64,000 nucleotides of DNA. Source: Punctularia strigosozonata HHB-11173 SS5 (Eukaryota; Basidiomycota; Agaricomycetes; Corticiales; Punctulariaceae). The translations under genes were made by a program, and so were the position numbers. The stretch lies in the NCBI RefSeq assembly GCF_000264995.1, contig NW_006767433.1, positions 3,351,521 through 3,415,520 of the forward strand. The letters are read 5' to 3'. The notes beneath the pieces are model-generated. The model saw only the letters and a program-made list of their open reading frames with translations, was not told where the DNA came from and did not search any database. Each line of letters opens with the position of its first letter. Position 1 is the first letter of the stretch. Below, in pieces: positions 6,247 through 22,635 of this stretch.

Positions 6247-8437
6247 ATGCTCAAATCTGCAACGCTGCTCTGTTCTGCGGCAGCGTTCTGTACCGCAGCG
6301 TCTCTCAATGTGTCTACGGGACTGGGCCATTTCCTCGGCTCGCGCAATCAGTCTACAACCATCGAATCGTGGCTCGGAATACGCTTTGCTACTCCCCCCA
6401 TTGGCGATCTGCGTTTCCGTGCGCCCGTCAGGGTCCCCGACGACATCTCATCGGTACATAACGCGACCAGCTTCGGCAATGCTTGTCCTCAGATTCCGAG
6501 CACGTCTCTGGGCGCCCCGCAGGCGGAAGACTGTCTATTCTTGAATGTAAGGGCTATGTGACGGCAACTTAAGCGGGCCACTGAAACCTCCACAGATATT
6601 TCGTCCCTCAGGTGTTCATCAGACAATAGCTGGGCTCCCGGTACTGGTTTGGTTCTACGTGAGAGCATCGCAGATGTTTTATCTTGCAACCAATAATCCA
6701 TTATTTCCAGGGAGGCGCCTATACCCATGGAGCCGCATCGGATCCATCTTTCGATGCTACCGGTGAGCTCGTTCCAAGTTTGGATCTCCATAGGTTCTGA
6801 GCACGGTACAGCCATGATTCAGCGCAGTGTTGATATAGGCAAACCTATCTTGTTCGTATCCGTGTAAGTCAACACAGCGATCAGCGGGTATATCTCAGCC
6901 TTCATCTCGCCAAGCAGGAATTACCGCGTCAATACATTTGGCTTCGTTAGTGATTCAAGTGATCCATTTGGGCTCGTTCATATGCCTGTACGATCTGTAG
7001 CTTGCGAGTCGACACGTTCCTGCTCAGGATCTCAACGCCGGCTTGCAAGATCAAATTGCAGCCCTTGACTTTGTCAAGGAAAACATCGGCGCTTTTGGGG
7101 GCGATCCTGACAAGGTGACGATTTGGGGACAGGTAATGTCACAGAACACATGGAATATCAGTCTGTTCGAGCTTGCTTTAGTCTGCAGGGGCTGGTAGCG
7201 TCTCAGCACACATTTTATATCCTGCAAATAGGACGCTGTTTCGAGGGGGTATGGCGAACTCTCCGACAGGGCCCTTGTAGGTATCCATCTGACTTCGATG
7301 ACAACGCTGATTCGATATGGTATCAGCAAAAGCTCTCCGTTCGCATTCCAGTATGACGAGCCGGGAAAGCCATATGCCCTCCTCACTTCCGTGCTGGGAT
7401 GTCCCTCTGACGGCCGGTCATTCGGGTGTCTGCAGCAGGTGCCGTTTGAGGTAGGTTAAGGTGCACATCTCGCATGGCCGTTGTGTCTGATTCGGCGTTG
7501 CAGCTTCTGCGAAATGTCAGCAACACTATGATCAGCAACACACTGAACGGCCAGCTCTGGGAGCCTGTTGTTGGTCCACCTGGTAGCCTCGTTCCAGAAC
7601 GGGAATCGGCACGGATCGCCAGCGGGCATTTCCTTCACGTGCCATATCTCGCCGGCACGAACAACAATGAAGGAACGTTCTTCACAAGCTCGGTTCGCAA
7701 TATCACTCATCAAGCATCCGAAGAGGCCGCCCTCTTCGACAACTATGTCGCACGCCTTGTGTTGGATAACCGTACGATCACCCAACCCATCCTGGACGAG
7801 TTCCGTCGCTTGTATCCAGCCAACGGCACAAATAATGGGGCTCCGTTCGAGACCGGCGATTCGTTGTTCGACAGGGTAGAAGCATGGTACACAGACAACA
7901 TGTTCCTTGCGCCGCGCAGACTCTTCTTTGATGCAGCGGCTGGCAAGCAGAATTTATACGGCTATTTCTTTAAAGAGTTGATTCCTGGGAATGATCCGAG
8001 TCTTGGAGGTAAGGCGGATGGTCAATCTAACCTCATCACTGCTGATGTTGTCGTTTCTACAGTGACACACGCCATTGAGCTGCAACTCCTGTTCGGTCGT
8101 CTTACGGTGGCTCCCAGCGAGGCCGAATTTGCTCTGAATTTCACAGACGCGTATCTGAATTTCGTAAACGATCTGATACCCGGACGTGCGTCGCCAATAT
8201 AGTCCTTCTATAAGCGTAACTGATGCGTGATATGCGACGCCGTAGCGTCCTGGCCCCGCTTTACAACCAATTCGCGGAAGGTGCTGCAGTGGACGAAGGG
8301 CAATATTACGCCCATCGCGGATGGTCAGTTGGCACGGCTTCATCTGTTGTGCATCGTCTGATACCATCATAGATTGGAATCTCGAACGCACGGGATATCT
8401 GGCATCACCCTTAGTCCTTGATGCATTCGAGAAGTAG
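6247..8437 (+). CDS. Secreted type-B carboxylesterase/lipase, paralogue A
   Basis: Twelve exons: 6247-6546, 6596-6658, 6711-6762, 6812-6863, 6918-6945, 7001-7132, 7182-7276, 7327-7450, 7504-8008, 8063-8185, 8246-8323, 8373-8437. The product has 538 residues, the normal size. An N-terminal signal peptide ([19 protein letters not shown]) is followed by the alpha/beta-hydrolase fold: [19 protein letters not shown], the oxyanion-loop segment [13 protein letters not shown] and the nucleophile elbow IWGQSAGAG (Ser210). The predicted acid is Glu338 in GTNNNEGT and the base is His453 in GVTHAIE. It should hydrolyse esters extracellularly; the substrate cannot be read from sequence. Paralogue B lies about 21 kb downstream with nearly the same exon lengths. 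The gene is convergent with the RBR ligase, whose stop is 90 nt away. Confidence 0.93.
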
Positions 8438-8527: not shown

Positions 8528-10941
8528 TCACTGCTCATACACGCGACCTGAAAACAAGGCGCATCTGCCATAGTGTGCAGACACATGACTTCGGATATCG
8601 GAGAGCTTCACCGAACGCACGATTGTCTGCCCGCATTTGTAACAAAAGTGTCTGACACGGTACATGTGTTAATGAAGAGAAACACAATAAAGACTATGAC
8701 TAACGTGTTACATCCCGCTGACATGCACTGAGACGGTTCCCGCAGTTCAACGACTGCTTTGTTGCTGAGGGAGAGTTCGATCCACGTACCGTCATATGGT
8801 TGCATCCTTGTGTCTTCTCAACCGGAGTGCTACAGCCTGCAGGAGAAACGAGGTGTTTAAGTTCCGAAACCCTGGCGACGGGCATAGATGATGTCTGACC
8901 AGGGCAATGCTTCCACCCTCGTCGGTCCATGAGATCGTTCAGTTCTGAAGTACCGTCGCATGAATGCACAGAGGTGGCAATATCCACTTCACGAGAGCAG
9001 TCCTTGCACCACAAATAATTGCATGTGGGCAATGGGCATACTATCAGCTTCGCTTCTTCGTATTCGCGACGATCGACGAACACGGACTTGCTGCATCTAA
9101 CGGAATTTGCGTGGGATCAACTCCGATGATCGCCACACGGTTAATCATACGCACTTGCGGCAATGGAGTAAGATGGAGAAGCTTGCCATTTGCAACTCAA
9201 CGTACGTCTCATACTCTTTCTCCGTGATACCAACAGTATGCGCGATGTCGTCGTTCAGAGCTGCCCTATGTCAGTACACGTAATCAGCCAGCAGTTGAGG
9301 GCTCACTTCCGGGGTCGCGTCTGTCTTTTTCCGTCAAGCAAACGGGACATAGGATTGGGAACCGCTGTTCTCCAAGCTTGGATTGAAGATAAAGACGCAG
9401 GCACTCCCGACAGAACAGATGACCGCACGGATCGATTCGAGAGAGTGCGAAGGTGGATTGTGTCTCAAGACAGATCCCGCAATCGAAGGAGCCGGGATCC
9501 CCCGCTTTCAGTTCCTCAAACTGGGAGATCAGCTGAATATGCTCCTCCTCATATTCGCGCTGTTTATCTGCAGCGATGCGAGCATCTTCCAAGTCCTGTG
9601 CTTCAAACTCTCTCCTGAGTTGGTCCGCCAATGCGGCGTCATCCAGAGTGGGACGGGCGGGCGGTAGTGCAGTGGAAGGAAGACCGTCTTTCGTCTCCGC
9701 ACTCCTGCGAAGAGCCGCTGCGTATGATTTATCGTTCATTTCAGAATCTCTTGCCTTGCCTTTCGACGTCGAGTTGCTCGCGTTTGATGACGATGCTCCG
9801 TGAAATGGGGGCGAGGGTGATTTTTCCCGATGATGATTGTAGACGTCGGCAGGACGCAGATTCCACGGTAGCCAGCTCTGCTGGCGCTGACGCCGTTCGT
9901 CTTGTAAGTTCTCTACCTCGGACTCCAGACGAACGACGTCAGCGGTGAGATTATTGACGGTGGCTTGAAGGGACTGGCACTCGTCCTGCGCCTGGGCGAT
10001 GCCCACCTTCAGCTGTAGTTGTGTGACGGTGGATCTTGCGATGGCATCGAACCATTCATCTGGCAGAGGCGACACTCGCTTCGCACAGAAGACATGTGCG
10101 GAGCATTGCCCGAACAATTGGACCTCCCACTGCAGCGATGTATCCTCTAGCAAGCGTGCATCCACTCGGAATAAACCTGCCAGGTAGGAGCCAACGGCCT
10201 GGGCAGATGGAAGAAAGATAAAAGCGGCACCAGTGGGGTGGCTTGGGCGTGTATGGGAGTCGAATACCGCATACCGATCTTCGGCATTAGGGCGGACCAA
10301 GCGAAGGGCGACCACAATCTCAGGAGTACGAGTGACAACGACGGCGAAGGAGAGCGTGGGCAGCATCTGGCATGATTTCCTGGTGAAGACATCATCAGTG
10401 TACGAACCGAGCAAGGATGGGACCTCGCGCGTACTTGAGGAGAGTTGTGAATTCGCGTGAGTCGGGTACGAAGTAAGTCACTGATCTCTGGGTCAACGTC
10501 GTGGAGAACAGCGGTCCCTCAAAGATCGTATCGACGTCCAAGTGAGCGGAATCCTTCCATAGCGTGCAGATGCCGAGAATTTCCTGCTCGATAGGTCGTC
10601 AGAATCGGTATGGCCGGGACAGAGCTGCGGGTGTGGCTAGACAGGGCTAGACGCGACCGTACCTCGAACGTCCTTCTCTCAATCATGTCCAGCAGAAGAC
10701 TCACACCCTGTGTGCCTTCGCGCTCCCGACCGAGGACGACCCGAGCACAGTTCAACGCGGCCAGGCCACATGAAGACGCCCCTCCTGCACTGTTGTACTG
10801 GCTGCAATGAGGGCACGAGACGATCTCTGTCTCTCCGGCGAGGATGCGCCTGACGATGAGCTCGTCGTTCTGCGGGCGCTGCTGGGCCCGGGAGGACTCT
10901 GCAGGATCCATGTTGGCGTAGGCAGGATATCTGGGTGTCAT
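8528..10941 (-). CDS. RBR-type E3 ubiquitin ligase with papain-like (herpes-tegument-DUB-like) N-terminus
   Basis: Minus-strand exons: 10663-10941, 10435-10583, 9307-10379, 9155-9260, 8900-9096, 8790-8836, 8705-8727, 8528-8651; 665 residues. The C-terminal half is a complete RING-IBR-RING2 ubiquitin ligase: RING1 around 440-490 (CGICLETQ...CGHLFC...CPVC), IBR around 545-600 (LLHCRKCSKSVF, CPLPTCNYLWCKDC) and RING2 with the predicted ubiquitin-accepting Cys613 in QGCNHMTC, then FCYKCG. A coiled coil lies near 230-280, then a disordered linker. The first 220 residues show QYN (48-50), SSCGLAALNC with Cys58 and later FDSHTRP with Asp183-Ser-His185. This Gln/Cys...Asp-X-His layout resembles papain-fold deubiquitinases of the herpesvirus tegument (UL36/M48) type. 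RBR identity is firm; DUB activity is inferred. It diverges from the giant GTPase gene across 409 nt. Confidence 0.9.
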
Positions 10942-11350: not shown

Positions 11351-14300
11351 ATGGACTCGAGCTGGACACCTTCCAACGTGTTTCGCGATCCCGACTCCTT
11401 CATGGAGCCCGCCGATGACTCAGACGATGATTTGTATGCAGATGCTATGGACGCCGACATTGCCTATCAGTCGGTTTGTCGACCCCGCCATGCTCTACGT
11501 TTGAATCCTCACTGACGTGTTGAATGTAGCCGCTCGGTCAGTCTGTGCCCGTCAACATGGACGTCGACGCTGCTCCTCAAGGAGCTACGTCTTCGGACAC
11601 GGCACCGATCCCCATCGAAATCGAGGCAGCCCAGCACCAACAAGCAGGTGGAACGCTTCCCATGCCTGAATTACAGGCCCAGCCTGAGGAGCTGCCTACA
11701 GTCATTGGTCCTGAACAGACCAAGCCTTCCGCAACTGCGCCCACGCTGGACCTCATGTACTCCGTCAAGGGTCTCTACAGGATCTTGGATCTGATCAACG
11801 AACAAGGAAGCGGCGGCCTCGGTCCGTATTACTTTCTCGTATCAGGTTACGATTCTGACGCCAATACTTCCAGTGGATAAGATCATAATCGCTCAGGACT
11901 CGCTTGGATGCTTCATCAACGACATCTCATCCGGCGCATATACGTCGCTGACCAAAGTCAAATTCTCCGCGCTCGATCAAGTCCATCTGCAACCAATCGG
12001 CGTGTATGGTAGCAAATCGGAGATTGTCAAGTTCTTGCGGTTCAAAAACGTCATCGATGATTCGACGTGAGTCTTTATGATGGTGTTCATCTCGTTCCTT
12101 CCCTCACAACGAACAGTGCCACTTTACTCGCGTCCGTTGATGACTCGGCTACGGCTCGTCCAATGCTACGCTCGGGTCTATATTTCCTTCGTTCTCAAGA
12201 AGCCAACCATCCGAACAAGCTGTACGTCATCTATTGGCCCGAGGACAGCACATGGGACGATGCAGCGATATCGTCTGTAAGCCGTAACCGGATCACGTTC
12301 ATGCGGTATGTCCAGCAGGCGTATCGGTCGCTCCTTGGCTCACGCCCACTCAGCTACCTTACAAAGATCGCGGATCAGATTGTTGCGCTCATATCTCCGC
12401 ATCATGCGCAAGACTTTGTTTGGCGTGATAGGCTGCCGGGCACAGAAGCCCCTCCAGTTGAACTAGACGACGATGAAAGCGATCGTCTTTTTTCCTTTGA
12501 GGTTGCGAAGACTTTTGAACAGGACGAAGACGTAACAGCGCGGCCCGGCTTCACAGTACGCTGTCCCGACATTCTCGCCACGGCGAAGTGCGAAATCCCA
12601 CCGGCAGCCTCTTCACCCTCAAATAGCTGTTCCCCATGCCCAACTATCCATACTTCTGACGACCTTCTTGGAAGTGACTGCAGCCGTCTTCAGCCCCGTT
12701 TACTGTCAGGAGAAGCATCCTGCGGCATTCTCTCGGTGGAGTATGTACCACCTGCTCACAGGAAAGATGTGTTCGTCGAAAAATGCAACGCATTCCGTCT
12801 CAACCAACTGATGTAAATACATATTCTGTCTTGTGTTTGACAAACGTTGATTAATTATCTACCGCCAGCGAACACGAATCCATTAAGCTCGGCGACCAAC
12901 TCACCGACTCATCCTTAGTCGTGCTCTTGGAAAATGGTCTGGAGAAACGCTCGCCGAAGCCCTGCGCGTCGCTGAAGAAGCGTTTGGCGGACTTGCAGGA
13001 GAAGAAAAAGACAGAGATTCGTGATGAGGTAAAGAGCATGCAAGATGATCTTCATAAGGACGATGCCAAGCTGTGTTCTGCGATATCTTTATCGCTCATC
13101 GCTGTGTTGGCAAAGAAGTTCCCGTAAGTCACGTCCGGCAGACTCCCAGTTGAGCCCACTTCTTATGACCATTTCTTGAACCGGTTTCCCTATGCAGATC
13201 ATTGATGAGGGATGATGACGCGGAGCTTGACGGTACCTCTGTGCTGGCTAACTTGGACACATGGACTGGTGCTTCCACGTATCAAGGTGCGTTACAGGTG
13301 CTCAGCTCATCTTGCTTACGATTCAATTGGACCGCGGTCCACAGATTTTCTGAACCCAATCATGGAACGATGGCCATTCATCCATCGGCTACTGGAAGAC
13401 TTGCCGTCGGACAGAGCGTTGCGTTCGATCGCAAGCAAGACATTCAAGACGAACAAGGAGCGGTTGCTCTTGTTGCATCTTCTCCTCGCAGAAAAACCGG
13501 ACGTGCAATCGACCAGCCAATGGACCAGTATAGTGCCTACAACCATCGATGGAGATTTTCGACTTGCGATGGAGTCTTTGGGACCGATTCCGGTTTCATC
13601 TGGACACGGCAACGAAAAGAGCTGGTGGTCGAAGATTTCGAAATTCGGTTGGCCCGGCGCAACTCGTTCCACCAACACGTTCGATATCAGACGTTTTGCA
13701 GCGGATGTTCAGGATGATATATTCCTGATGGAGCTACCCCGCCTAGTGGATCTTGAGCCTACACTTGCTTCCATGGCAGCCGATACTATTGCAGAAGCGC
13801 AGGAGTTCTTGCGCTCCAAGGTCGCGGACAAGTCCAAGACGATTTGCGCGCGCATCAGAGCTCAACAAGAGAATGATCTCAAAGATGCGATCAGGGCGGC
13901 AGCGAATGCGCGTCATGGTGAAGCTGTCCGAGGGGCATACAGCATCTTTCGAAACAACTTTAAGGATCGGCTGATCAAAGACTCTGATATGTGTGTCATT
14001 TCCTGAACATGCGATAACGAGTTCTCACAGCATCATTGTCCATAGGAAAACCATGGTCATTCACGATGTTTCTCCTCAGAAGCTGGGGTGGGGTACGTCG
14101 GGTATGTCACAGGCGCTTCGTCGGCAATAAGCTATTCTTTTCATCTACTTCGTTACAGAGCACTTTGAAATCAGGGGCGAGTACAGGTATACGACAGACC
14201 CTGTGCTCCAGTACACCTGCTACCTGTTCCAGCTTTCCCAATCCGATCGCCATCAGTTGTCTTTCGATGCACTCTTTATCCCTTCGCCACAGCTCCACCC

Positions 14301-17300
14301 ACGCTCTGCGTTGTCGTTCAGGCTTCCTGTCCACCATCGTATACTGTGAGTGTCCTTACACGGACATCGATCTATGTACTGAAGTCATTGGTTATAGTCA
14401 CATCCAATTGCTTCAGGAGATGAGATGCCTTCTCATCGTCGACGATAGCAAGGGGGGAATACACGTATATCTGGAGAAACTGGAATCCCTCGACAAGTGT
14501 GTGGATCGCCGAGCTGCGAAGAAGACGTGGCATCGCGACAAGATCGGCGGTGACTTCGTGATAGCTTTCGATGAGACAAGACGCACGCTAGCTGTGTGTG
14601 GGAAGAAGAGCGTAAGTGCAGTGCACGATTAACGATAATCAGAATGCCAACTGTCGGCGTTTTCCCAGCCTGATCTCAACCTGCACATTTTCATCTTTGA
14701 TGACAAGTATACTTCACTCCAAGGTGTCGGCTCTATGATCAAACTTCAGCCTTGGTTTGACGAGACAACCTCGATCTCCCACATGGTTTATGTGCTCGGC
14801 AGTGAGGAACTGCTTTTCATCGATGGCTTAGCGCGGGCACGAATATTCTCACTTGTAACTCAGCAATTCAGGTGACCGTCCCACTGTATTTACCAATACC
14901 AGCTGACATGTCCCAATATCTACAGACCTGCGTCCGTGCAGCTACCGCGCGACCCGACACATGTTCTTTCCTCCCCAGATGGCTCTTGCTTCATTGCATC
15001 CGAGCTACATGACCACAAGACAATCTTCAGAGCATATCATTGGTCAACCTTTGGCTCTACTTGTGGAATACAAATTGAGGTCCCAGAGTTTCCACCTGCG
15101 GGCAACCATGTCATGACATCGATAGGTTCCAAAACAAGCATACATCTCGTATACATGGATGTCGCAGGAAGCTGCTGCAAATCAGTTGCACTCCATATCA
15201 CCCGAAGAGTTACCGAGTTCATGTTCCAGGAGAAGGGTGCACAACAGATGCAGGAAGGAAAATCCTCGATCACCTCTCACAACTGTCTCGTTGAATGCCA
15301 TGCGGATGTTTGGAAGCGCTTTCCTGTTATGCCTGCAGTTCAAAGGCGCACAATCACACCTGCTTCCTCACGTGCGCCTCGATCAATCTGTTTTGTTACA
15401 GATCGGGACTATTCGCAATTCCTCCCGCATTTCAAGGATCTCATAGCTGATTTCGAGCGCACGACGCGCAAGCCTGGCAGCGCGGAGCTCAATGATGTTC
15501 ACATATCCGCACTCGACTTTGACTCCTTCTGCACGCAGGAGTTATTATCCCAATCCTCATTTCTCACTGGTGAATGGCTGGTAGACCTCATCTGTCTTAT
15601 CCCGATCCACATTGCGGTGACCAAAGACAACCGGTTCGTGCCCCTCAAGGATGGTGTATGGTCTGCGCAGCTGGAGCGGTCCCTTCTCGGTGCCACTGTT
15701 GATCAAATCATCGATCAGTGCGTTCGTATTCTGGTCTTCTGCATACGTTTTCTCACAGGATCATAGTTTATCTTTTGGTTGGTATGAAAGTTTGTTCCAG
15801 TCGTATATGGCAAGCAAGGTACGGCACACGCCGCTTTACGAGTAATCGGCTGAACCTGTTGTTGCAGCCGGTGAAAGTAGTCTCGTCAATGGGTATTAGC
15901 ACCCGATTATAATCCAAACAACCTGTATCACTCACTCTGGAACAGGTGAACAATCTGTCGGGAAGAGCTTTGCTCTTAATCATCTAGCAGATACGTCCTT
16001 TGCCGGCTCCGCAATGCGCACCACCGAGGGCACGTAAAGTCTGAGAAAGTTGCTCAAGGCTAAAGCTCATTGCATAATCAGGTGTATGGTTATCTGCAAC
16101 ACCGACTGAAAATGAGATCATCGTCACCCTTGACTTCGAAGGTGAGTATTGTCAATAACTCAATGCCAGCCCTGAAAACTCGTGTACTGCAGGGGTACAC
16201 AGTATCGAACGTTCTGCGCAAGAGGATACACTTCTCGTCCTCTTCAACACCGCAATCTCTAACTTGGTAAGCTTAACTTCGAGTGCCTTCACGTTGGTAT
16301 CGTGGTCCTGATTCCTCTTGAAGGTTCTTTTCCGCAACAATTTTGCATTATCCCGAGATATTACTGGGCTTTTTCATTCTTTCCAAGCTTCGTCGTCCGT
16401 TCTAGACCCTTCTGCTAACCCTTCGCTCTTTCAATCAATGCTTGTGATCATCATCAAGGTAAGTTATCACAAGTTATCGTGGTATCATCATGGCTTGACT
16501 GGCAACCCCTAGGACGTGGTTGACTCTGATAAGAAGGAGATCACGAAGGAGTCAGCATCCTGTTCTCAAGTTATAATCAACCCTCACACTATCTTCCGTT
16601 GCAGATTCAGTTTGAAGTTTAGAGATATTGTACAGGAAGAACAGGGCTCCAACTTCATCTCACGCTTGCACGCCGGTCATCTAACTATTGTCCCTTGGCC
16701 TGTCATTGAATCAAGACAATTCTATGCTCTCTTTCCCGCAATCAAGAGGATGCTTGACAAGCAGCAGACCACGCACGCTAGTGGGGCCATATTTTTGCAG
16801 ACTCTGAAGACATTGATGGCGAAACTCAAGGTGGTGATTTTATACACATGTAAGATCAATAACACTCATGTTTTGCCATCCAAAGGCGAATGACTGGGGG
16901 GCCATGTCCCGTGAGTCGTGTTAGGGTTCTCCTATGCCATTCCATCGTCGAGCAACTTCACAGAGAACCTCGCTGCACACCGAGTGAAACTACTTGGATC
17001 TGTCCTTCCTAAAGCCCTCGAGTATGGTGCCAACGAGATAGAGCCAGATATCGATCCTCTCAGGGTCAGCAGACGATCCGGGCAATTTATTGCTGATACT
17101 GACCAGCTCTAAGGACTTGGACTCGAACATGCCCATAGGAGCACCAGACACTCAAGCTCGGTTTGCCTCGCTGCTACCGAACTCAGTAAACCAGGCAGCG
17201 GAGCGGGAGAGAATCCTTGGTAGACTCCGTTCGTCCTGGGATCTTTATGGAACGCGGCAACATGCGGAAGATAGCGATTGGTTGTCGCAGCTCAACGCGT

Positions 17301-20300
17301 ACCTCGAGCATACAGTGGATCTCCGTGTACAACATGTTCAAGCTTGGTTATCTACGAACACAACAAGGCTTCCGGTAGCGGATGCTAACGTGGACAGCTT
17401 ACGCCGCAGCTTCGACAGCATGGTCATCGACCTCAGAGCCAGTACTCAACTGTGTGGGATCCAATGCTCCACTTGCAGCTTGTACTGCCTTCGCCTTCGT
17501 CACCATACTGGGGATCATGACTGTCAGACATCACATCAGTGCATCCACACATGCCAGTTCGTCGAAGAATGCTCCAACCAGGAGAAATGCGGTCTTCCGT
17601 ATGCCATGTCCTTGCATATTCTGTGCACTATCCCTGACATACACCAACTTAGTGCGGGGCATTCAGGAAGACATGTGTGAGTTCACAAACATCGGAGTCG
17701 CTCCGTCCATCCAACGCCAGCCCCTGTTTGACACACTCTCACAGCTGCGATATCAAATCTCATCTTTGCGGCCGACCCTGTGCATTGTCCGGTCGGCGTG
17801 GTTGCCTAGATCACTGTTCCAAGGTATGCATTGTCTTCTATATAACCTCCAAGCTTATCCATGCATCCAGGTCGTGAATCATGACGATGGCGAGCACTTA
17901 TGTGAAGCGCGAGTGCATGAATGTGGACAAGTGAGTGGCAGCCTGTCGAAGGCCGTCATCTCTAACACCACTTTCTCAGCCTTGTAGCCTGATCGACGTT
18001 AGAGCAGAAGACGGAAGCCTTCACACTTGCCGCGAAACCTGCCGAATCCCGAGGTGATACAGTGGCCACACCAGCGAACGCAATCATAATGTTAACGGGG
18101 TTCTCACAGCCATGACGAGCATGTGATCCATGTTTGCGCGAAGACGTCATGCCCAATTCGCTGCCAACTATGCCGCAGACTTTGTGCTAGCGACGACCAC
18201 CTACATGGTCTTGATGAAGATGCACAACATCTCTGCGGGTGCGTGTCGTCTCATCCGGTTCATCACTAAGCCTGCAACACCATGTTTACAGGCAAGAACA
18301 TGCGTGTAGTGCATTATGCTCTGCAGATGGCATTTGTCACATTGAGACTGCACCGCAGTCGATAGAAGCGACATTCACCGGGACCCATCAAACATTCCAG
18401 TACACGAAGGCAAGTAATTCACTACACGAACGTGTGCGCTATACATAATTTCTCTAACTATTTAACCAACAGTACTCGCAAGGAAGGTCATCTGATACTC
18501 TCGACCTTTTCATCGGCTGAGTGTTGCATTGGTAGTGAGCAAGCGCCTTCGATGTGTCATAGCGATCCGTCCGGGTGCCACCACTCACCCTGGCCCACAT
18601 TGCCATAGTATTGATTCAGACGTCTTTCATTACTGCGAGAACAGGTACAGCAGTTTTGCGCTCCCCTCCGTTGCCTATCAAACATCTCCTCCAGATGCGA
18701 GAACTGCGGATATTTTTGCACCTTAGTTCGTGGTATGTTGAGGTTCAGATGTTGCATATATCGTCGATGACCAGGCATGTCCATCAGGTCACACTCAGCA
18801 GGAGCACGAGACCAGCCACGGCTCAATGTCGAGGACTCGTTGGACAATTGACGGACAAGATGGGGCAGCGGTGGAGCTCGATGGGCGCAAGTTTGGTCGC
18901 AGCGACGAAGGTGCTCCTTTGCTGGTTTGTATCTCGGTTGCTATCTGACTCCCACCGCCGGAAGCTAATCTCCTACTAGTGCTCTATGGTATGCCGCAGT
19001 ATGGGTCGCCATGTTCACGTTGATTACTGTCGCTCTGGACCCGGTGAACGTTGCTCTGGCCCAGAATTACAGCACATCTCAGCGCAGATGCTTCCGAATC
19101 CTAGCAAAGCCAAAGACTGGATTAGTCATAGCCTCTTTTGGAGGCGCTTGGGTCAGTGGCAGTAAATAACTCAGTGATGCATTTATCTTTTTACTAAACG
19201 ATTTTGCGACCAGGTTTCAAAGGTACATGGTAATATGATATAACCGCGATCAACACTCATGATCACAACCCACCTATAGATCCATACTCTCGTGAAGATC
19301 AGACACACTTTGGAAAATGGTGAGTTTCGAGGGCCTGTATCGCGTTGGAACGCTGAAGTGCTGTGTAGCGATGCTATGTGTTCAGGTGGGCATACTTGTA
19401 TCAAGTGGTGGATATATGACCGATACTCGTGTTACCAGGAGGCGAACATGCGGCAACTTCGACCAATCCAGCGCAGCCATCTTTCTGTACCTTGCCGATC
19501 TTCCATGCACCTCATAACAGAGATCAAATGCCATCAGGAGCTGTCGGTTATATTTCTGGGGATGGTCATTTGTTTTCTTGCAGGAATCCTAGCGTAATGA
19601 AGTCTGCTTTCCACGTGTGAGTGCTTTCGCGACAAGCTCATCGCGGCCAACATAACGATTATTGTCAGGATCTTCGTCATTGATAGGTGATTTCAAAGAT
19701 GTCATATATATCTGTATGCTGATGGATATAATGTAGATCGGGATCGATGAGTGCTGGCGATCGTCGGCCACTTTCAGGGACGCCTGTCACTGCGAATATT
19801 GCGAGCCGCTGCAACAATAGGCTGGGGGCAGTCTATTCCGCGCTTCATGCATTCTGGCAGTCGCGACACTCTATCGCGACTGGGCAAGGCTTGGCAGCGA
19901 ATATAAACCGCCGAGACTCGTATACAGTGGTTCTATTTGACCATGAGGTCAACAGCGTACTACGGAACGATTTCACGAGCACCCCCGACGTTCTGCTTAA
20001 CACCGTTCTACGTCATGAAGCAAGGGGTGGTACGAACTTCACCGCCGCGCTTGCTACGGCACAGGCAGAGATGGAGGCTAGTTGGAGTACAGAGCGGTGT
20101 GTAGCCATTCGTATTGTCATTATCTCGCTGACCCCGAGTGCCCTCAAGAAACCCTGTGATCATCTTCCTTTCCGACGGCGAATGTAACGTTGCGGATAGC
20201 GCGATCCGCGACCTCTGCCGTAGGGCCGTGGTTCTTGGGTACGTGCAAATTCCCTTCAGCGATGATTTTCCTGGCGTGTATTCAATGGCGTACAGCAAAG

Positions 20301-20587
20301 CACTTTCATTCCATGCGGTATCTTTTGGACAAGACAACGGTATCCTTAGGCGCATGTCTCAAGTAGCCACGGAAGTGCAGAACGGCGCTCCACAAGACCC
20401 ACTGCATCCTCATGTTCCGTGCTCCTTTGCTCAAGCGCTTGACTCCGTAAGTCTTTCTCTTGGATGTGTCTCAAACACACGGTTTACGCTTGTTCGATAG
20501 GTTCGTCTGGCAGAGACTTTCTTAGGGATCGCGGAATCTATGCGCAAAACTCGCGGAGCTCTGTTGCAGACGGGAACAAACGGCTGA
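11351..20587 (+). CDS. Giant GBP/VLIG-class GTPase with Cys/His array and C-terminal vWA domain
   Basis: Forty-three exons, all in phase, encode about 2,315 residues: 11351-11473, 11530-11821, 11874-12066, 12117-12812, 12869-13123, 13198-13286, 13345-13990, 14046-14092, 14159-14345, 14398-14611, 14669-14871, 14926-15717, 15767-15818, 15868-15892, 15946-16029, 16082-16141, 16193-16266, 16324-16458, 16513-16550, 16605-16830, 16886-16910, 16964-17064, 17114-17598, 17653-17676, 17745-17823, 17871-17930, 17980-18053, 18110-18238, 18292-18409, 18473-18482, 18536-18644, 18695-18725, 18775-18924, 18980-19151, 19214-19222, 19280-19319, 19369-19385, 19439-19616, 19669-19686, 19737-20096, 20149-20238, 20296-20446, 20501-20587. 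The GTPase core shows P-loop GEQSVGKS (1272-1279), switch TTEGVW, G3 DFEG (1317-1320) and IIIKD (1386-1390), as in guanylate-binding/VLIG proteins. Cys/His clusters resembling NFX1-type fingers run from about 1633 to 2000. The vWA domain carries MIDAS DRSGS (2086-2090). The N-terminal 1,200 residues are unrecognised. Confidence 0.9.

Positions 20588-20890: not shown

Positions 20891-22635
<1,745 letters not shown>

Follow-up and report, generated by a model that had tools for sequence, protein, structure and literature searches.

A stretch of 64,000 nucleotides (nt) from the agaricomycete Punctularia strigosozonata HHB-11173 SS5 (contig NW_006767433.1, positions 3,351,521 to 3,415,520; hereafter the window) was analyzed, and a gene encoding a giant GTPase was recognized on its forward strand. 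The predicted protein starts with around 1,250 residues that gave no convincing match. These are followed by a GTPase domain, a Cys/His-rich array, and, at the C-terminus, a von Willebrand factor A (vWA) domain with a complete metal ion-dependent adhesion site (MIDAS). The GTPase domain is assigned, on sequence similarity, to the branch of guanylate-binding proteins (GBPs), atlastins, and Sey1, and only at that level. GTPases of this kind serve as switches in the defence of animal cells and in membrane fusion. The combination of such a GTPase, a Cys/His stretch, and a metal-dependent binding domain in one fungal protein is unusual.

Table 1. Features of the GTPase gene and its neighbours, in coordinates of the window (aa, amino acid residues of the model protein).
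Feature	Position	Strand	Remarks
Whole GTPase gene	11351..20587	+	43 exons, 6,957 nt coding sequence, 2,318 aa, stop codon at end only
N-terminal part, aa 1-748	11351..13990	+	Head (aa 1-112) acidic and rich in Pro/Ser, remainder unmatched; from model and composition
Segment aa 749-1130	14046..15409	+	Rich in strand-forming residues; from model and composition
GBP/Sey1-type GTPase domain including its end, aa 1251-1524	15868..17064	+	From Pfam and pairwise alignments
G1 P-loop GEQSVGKS, aa 1259-1266	15946..15968	+	First codon split by preceding intron
G3 DFEG, aa 1304-1307	16132..16194	+	Split by intron 16142-16192
G4-like IIIKD, aa 1373-1377	16447..16515	+	Split by intron 16459-16512; aligned with Sey1 VIRDH
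Single open exon with post-GTPase segment and first Cys/His motifs	17114..17598	+	aa 1525-1685
Cys/His-rich array, aa 1637-2078	17450..19600	+	42 Cys and 38 His in 442 residues
vWA domain, aa 2084-2318	19669..20587	+	MIDAS DRSGS / GGTNF / LSDGE
RING-IBR E3 ligase gene	8528..10911	-	Divergent neighbour, separate protein; start codon 440 nt from GTPase-gene start
RuvB-like TIP49 helicase exons	21417-22293	-	PF06068; just downstream of GTPase gene
Carboxylesterase-family open reading frame	7450-8202	+	PF00135

The gene model was made from genomic sequence alone with an exon/intron dynamic programme and then refined manually. Many splice sites were set by hand, guided in the Cys/His part by the Cys/His pattern and by expectation from fungal relatives. 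The 42 introns are 47-74 nt long (median 53.5), 40 of them GT-AG and two GC-AG (18410-18472 and 16030-16081); their size and density point to a basidiomycete. A codon table was trained on 855 codons from four open reading frame stretches in other parts of the window. Of the 32 exons that reach 60 nt, 28 score best in the frame used by the model rather than in either of the other two. With this table the automatic exon model scored 171.5. The reverse complement scored -73.0, and 50 dinucleotide shuffles averaged -124.5 (standard deviation (SD) 17.5, maximum -89.0), the other 10 of the 60 attempted having no legal path. Pfam matches for the GBP/RHD3 and vWA domains run across splice junctions of the model. 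Four tiny exons are seen in the Cys/His-to-vWA part, 19214-19222 (9 nt), 18473-18486 (14 nt), 19369-19385 (17 nt), and 19669-19686 (18 nt), and exons of this size are a likely source of misannotation in relatives.

That two or more adjacent genes were misread as one would fit with the modules differing in descent, with a model built on genomic sequence alone, and with three introns (12306-12353, 17599-17652, and 20239-20295) being optional, as their retention introduces neither a stop nor a frameshift. The automatic models also vary in detail: the one trained on the gene itself has 35 exons and 2,422 codons, and the one trained on the other open reading frames has 43 exons and 2,225 codons. 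Against this, the automatic model across the whole stretch scores far above the shuffles, one exon spans both the post-GTPase segment and the first Cys/His motifs, and the frame of the final model stays open up to its terminal stop. Separate genes are very unlikely. The single 43-exon gene proposed in the initial annotation is therefore retained, and the motifs named there were all located (GEQSVGKS, DFEG, IIIKD, and DRSGS, starting at residues 1259, 1304, 1373, and 2089).

In Pfam searches, the GTPase domain matched PF02263 (GBP) with 26.9 bits (24.3 with a shorter query), over the cut-off of 21.1. PF05879 (RHD3) outscored it in bits (34.2 and 35.8), under its own cut-off of 42.4; for comparison, a fragment of Sey1 from the same genome scored 261.1 on PF05879 with one misread letter in the query. 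The initial annotation had placed the protein in a "GBP/VLIG class". The large GTPase near GBP stands, and VLIG does not: PF25683 (URGCP) gave 16.6 and 16.4 bits around G1, missing the cut-off of 55 and scoring lower than RHD3 and GBP. No match to PF00350 (dynamin proper) was found at E ≤ 1, the Mgm1 fragment of the same genome matching it at 3.9e-48, and the G part hit no NCBIfam family. Placement was judged by pairwise scores in place of a tree. By these scores, dynamins and a small GTPase are more distant from the domain than GBP and Sey1 are, and it is about equally near to the Sey1 of its own genome and to GBP5, with the GBP5 alignment slightly better; thus, "GBP/Sey1 branch" is the safer name.

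Membership is kept to the level of this branch because the features that define GBP proper and those that define Sey1 are only partly present. The P-loop arginine of GxxRxGKS, which has a role in GBPs, is not present (GEQSVGKS, compared with GLYRTGKS in GBP5). No Pfam family of the GBP helical domain was matched at E ≤ 1 with a 492-residue query. The C-terminus reads LLQTGTNG, without a CaaX box, a feature of only some GBPs. No 19-residue hydropathy window exceeds 1.6 after the G domain, and hence no transmembrane hairpin is predicted there.

Outside the Cys/His-rich array, 86 Cys and His are counted in the remaining 1,876 residues. The array includes four half NFX1 motifs, C-X(1-6)-H-X-C-X3-C, two of them within an H-X-C...H-X-C-G-X-P-C repeat. 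Pattern searches for NFX1, RING, and PHD gave no complete instance, and NFX1 was not matched in Pfam at E ≤ 1; the "NFX1-like" label given to the array earlier is dropped. A PDB search with the array returned nothing at E ≤ 10. Splice choice itself can favour Cys and His codons, and therefore the plain Cys/His fraction is only moderately above chance; the half-motif count is well above chance and is the stronger point. The automatic model with a Cys/His bonus scored 131.6, compared with a mean of 41.3 (SD 11.8, maximum 74.4) for 93 valid shuffles of 100, and its 93 Cys and His in 589 residues exceed all 93 valid shuffles (maximum fraction 0.150). Against the array reading, the model without bonus has 56 Cys and His in 526 residues (0.106), a fraction close to the shuffle maximum (0.106), and the final model (84 in 582, 0.144) is under the maximum of the bonus shuffles. 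Four half motifs are present in both the final and the bonus models and two in the model without bonus; 92 of the 93 shuffles have none and the remaining one has a single half motif. Residue shuffles of the array attained four in 8 of 5,000. The array would bind zinc.

The vWA domain was detected by VWA_2 of Pfam along the entire profile (positions 1-107 of 107; 53.2 bits, cut-off 27, E 5.2e-14). All segments of the MIDAS pattern DxSxS...T...D are present (DRSGS at residue 2089, GGTNF at 2187, and LSDGE at 2217), in agreement with the C-terminal vWA domain of the initial annotation. The PDB search gave one match with E 0.37, and the five NCBIfam families hit were all far under their cut-offs.

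The N-terminal region of some 1,200 residues, said earlier to resemble nothing recognizable, indeed gave no convincing match. Pfam returned only Ntox1 (E 0.47, under its cut-off) for residues 1-748 and no family for residues 749-1250; the PDB search gave one match (E 0.33) for residues 111-748 and nothing at E ≤ 10 for residues 749-1076. Residue composition makes a beta-propeller possible at residues 749-1130. The exon 14927-15715, folded by itself as one contiguous exon, had a mean predicted local distance difference test score (pLDDT) of 36.4, too low for use. Hydropathy windows peak at 1.69 at residues 1181-1200, and no clear transmembrane segment was seen.

The G domain, the vWA domain, the Cys/His array, and residues 111-748 served as queries against the genome of P. 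strigosozonata (33.57 Mb, 32 contigs). No second copy of the gene was found by this search, which was run exon by exon with only the best candidates scored, so that diverged copies could be missed. Among the matches listed, 27 of 28 fall within the GTPase gene. The remaining one, a Cys/His match on contig C4 (E 0.11), was dropped as a chance match; its open frame overlaps a long open frame on the opposite strand (L019). A GBP profile search gave no match in this genome, nor in 14 control genomes, and is thus void. Separately, a dynamin-type P-loop, GNQSAGKS, was observed on contig C10 around 805452 (L041), and this gene may be one of the Mx-like fungal MxF proteins (candidate label; MxF as named in the available text of PMC11789081).

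Relatives were sought in three collections. Two scans of viral_contigs gave 7 and 9 pattern matches and a scan of genome_contigs with an 88-residue query gave 116, none of which was confirmed, and tblastn found none in phages. These collections have few eukaryotes and the scans catch close relatives only, and thus say nothing about other fungi. A literature search over titles and abstract beginnings, with few subscription journals, brought up no paper on this architecture in fungi among the matches listed. Other mushroom genomes presumably hold proteins of the same make-up, annotated as "VWFA domain-containing", and the claim of novelty is accordingly modest.

The 3' end of the neighbouring RING-IBR gene is uncertain, four ends scoring nearly equal. 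Its N-terminal part, where Pfam gave no match, carries SSCGLAALNCAR and FDSHTRPSHP, which are reminiscent of the Cys and His found in papain-like proteases; its product may thus be a protease-ligase fusion.

The GTPase protein most likely works like a GBP-type scaffold GTPase. In its full form this reading has about an even chance: one gene would encode a soluble scaffold GTPase of the GBP/atlastin/Sey1 branch that self-assembles under GTP and holds on to partners with its metal site and its array. It is based on the gene model in which all parts are joined, the motifs G1 and G3, the G4-like motif, the complete MIDAS, and the lack of a clear transmembrane anchor and of a CaaX box. The G domain is flanked by about 1,250 N-terminal residues, a putative platform, and by the C-terminal array and vWA domain. 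GTP binding would lead to dimerization of G domains, as in GBP and Sey1, and hydrolysis would move the flanking parts. The array would be folded around zinc, and the vWA domain could use a divalent metal ion to grip an acidic residue that belongs to a partner or to the next subunit. The whole would be a GTP-gated scaffold gathering on an intracellular target recognized by the N-terminal part.

Several observations weigh against this scaffold. The PF02263 match covers only profile positions 16-99 of 264 and the RHD3 match ends at position 86 of 245. The second half of the G domain returned nothing at E ≤ 10 from the PDB, and no G5 motif was identified. GBP-type catalysis is not assured by a P-loop without the arginine that GBP5 has. 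The Cys/His-to-vWA join depends on one 18-nt exon.

A housekeeping organizer of membranes, cytoskeleton, or septa, with work nearer to Sey1/atlastin than to immune GBPs, is conceivable but doubtful. The higher bit score of RHD3, the Sey1-like QSxGKS P-loop on a G domain about as near to its own Sey1 as to GBP5, and the failure to find a second copy point that way; the missed RHD3 cut-off, the slightly better GBP5 alignment, and the lack of any hydropathy window above 1.6, and hence of a hairpin, after the G domain point away. It is unlikely that the protein is instead a cell-autonomous defence GTPase, which would sense a virus, a bacterium, or an incompatible nucleus or hypha, assemble on the invader under GTP, and partner the RING-IBR ligase. 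The G domain of GBP class and the head-to-head RING-IBR gene, with start codons 440 nt apart, are consistent with it. Head-to-head neighbours are, however, common in compact genomes. Arms races are expected to expand gene families, unlike here, where no second copy was found, and PADLOC gave nothing at E ≤ 1 for the three protein parts given. Defence is also favoured by the immunity role of animal and plant GBPs, as described in the available text of PMC12489281. The defence or stress role proposed in the initial annotation, with the zinc array as sensor and the vWA domain as assembly module, is conjectural. A long shot is a fungal third branch of GBP/Sey1-type GTPases acting as a soluble surveillance machine, in which the N-terminal part would recognize targets, GTP would drive assembly, the array and the MIDAS would lock the assembly or seize clients, and the head-to-head RING-IBR ligase would mark the catch.

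A soluble fungal giant that carries both a GBP/Sey1-type G domain and a MIDAS would extend the range of uses known for this fold. With no evident second copy, the question can be tested by one knock-out.

Among known systems, GBP1-5 (PF02263) share the stretch from G1 to G3 (34 identities over 106 residues with GBP5) and the passing of the Pfam cut-off. They differ in their P-loop arginine, helical domain, and CaaX box, and their full chains compared here have about 590 residues, whereas the fungal G domain lies in the middle of 2,318. Sey1/RHD3 and atlastins (PF05879) share the QSxGKS P-loop, EG and then ER around G3, and VIRDH aligned with IIIKD; the fungal protein stays under their Pfam cut-off and lacks the membrane hairpin after the G domain. 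VLIG/URGCP (PF25683) shares a weak match near G1 (16.6 bits), with its cut-off of 55 missed and a score under RHD3 and GBP. From the NFX1 zinc fingers, the array has four half motifs, without a complete motif or a Pfam match at E ≤ 1.

The reviews, in the parts available (including PMC8565484 and PMC12489281), report GBPs from animals, plants, and social amoebae. A 2025 survey of the dynamin superfamily including fungi covers Vps1, Dnm1, Mgm1, Fzo, and the Mx-like MxF; no word starting with "guanylate" occurs in the main text of that survey (PMC11789081). Dictyostelium Gnbp is likewise non-animal, with a GBP-type G domain and a long motif-free stretch; its signal peptide and C-terminal membrane helix, reported in the accessible part of PMC8565484, are not evident in the fungal protein, as judged by hydropathy only, with no signal-peptide predictor. 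RNF112, as far as described in the accessible text of PMC12012479, is an atlastin-like GTPase joined to a zinc-binding domain; its RING is at the N-terminus, and a transmembrane helix is predicted for it. The fungal protein resembles it in pairing a GTPase of the atlastin kind with a putative zinc-binding Cys/His array, and differs in having no RING pattern and an extra vWA domain.
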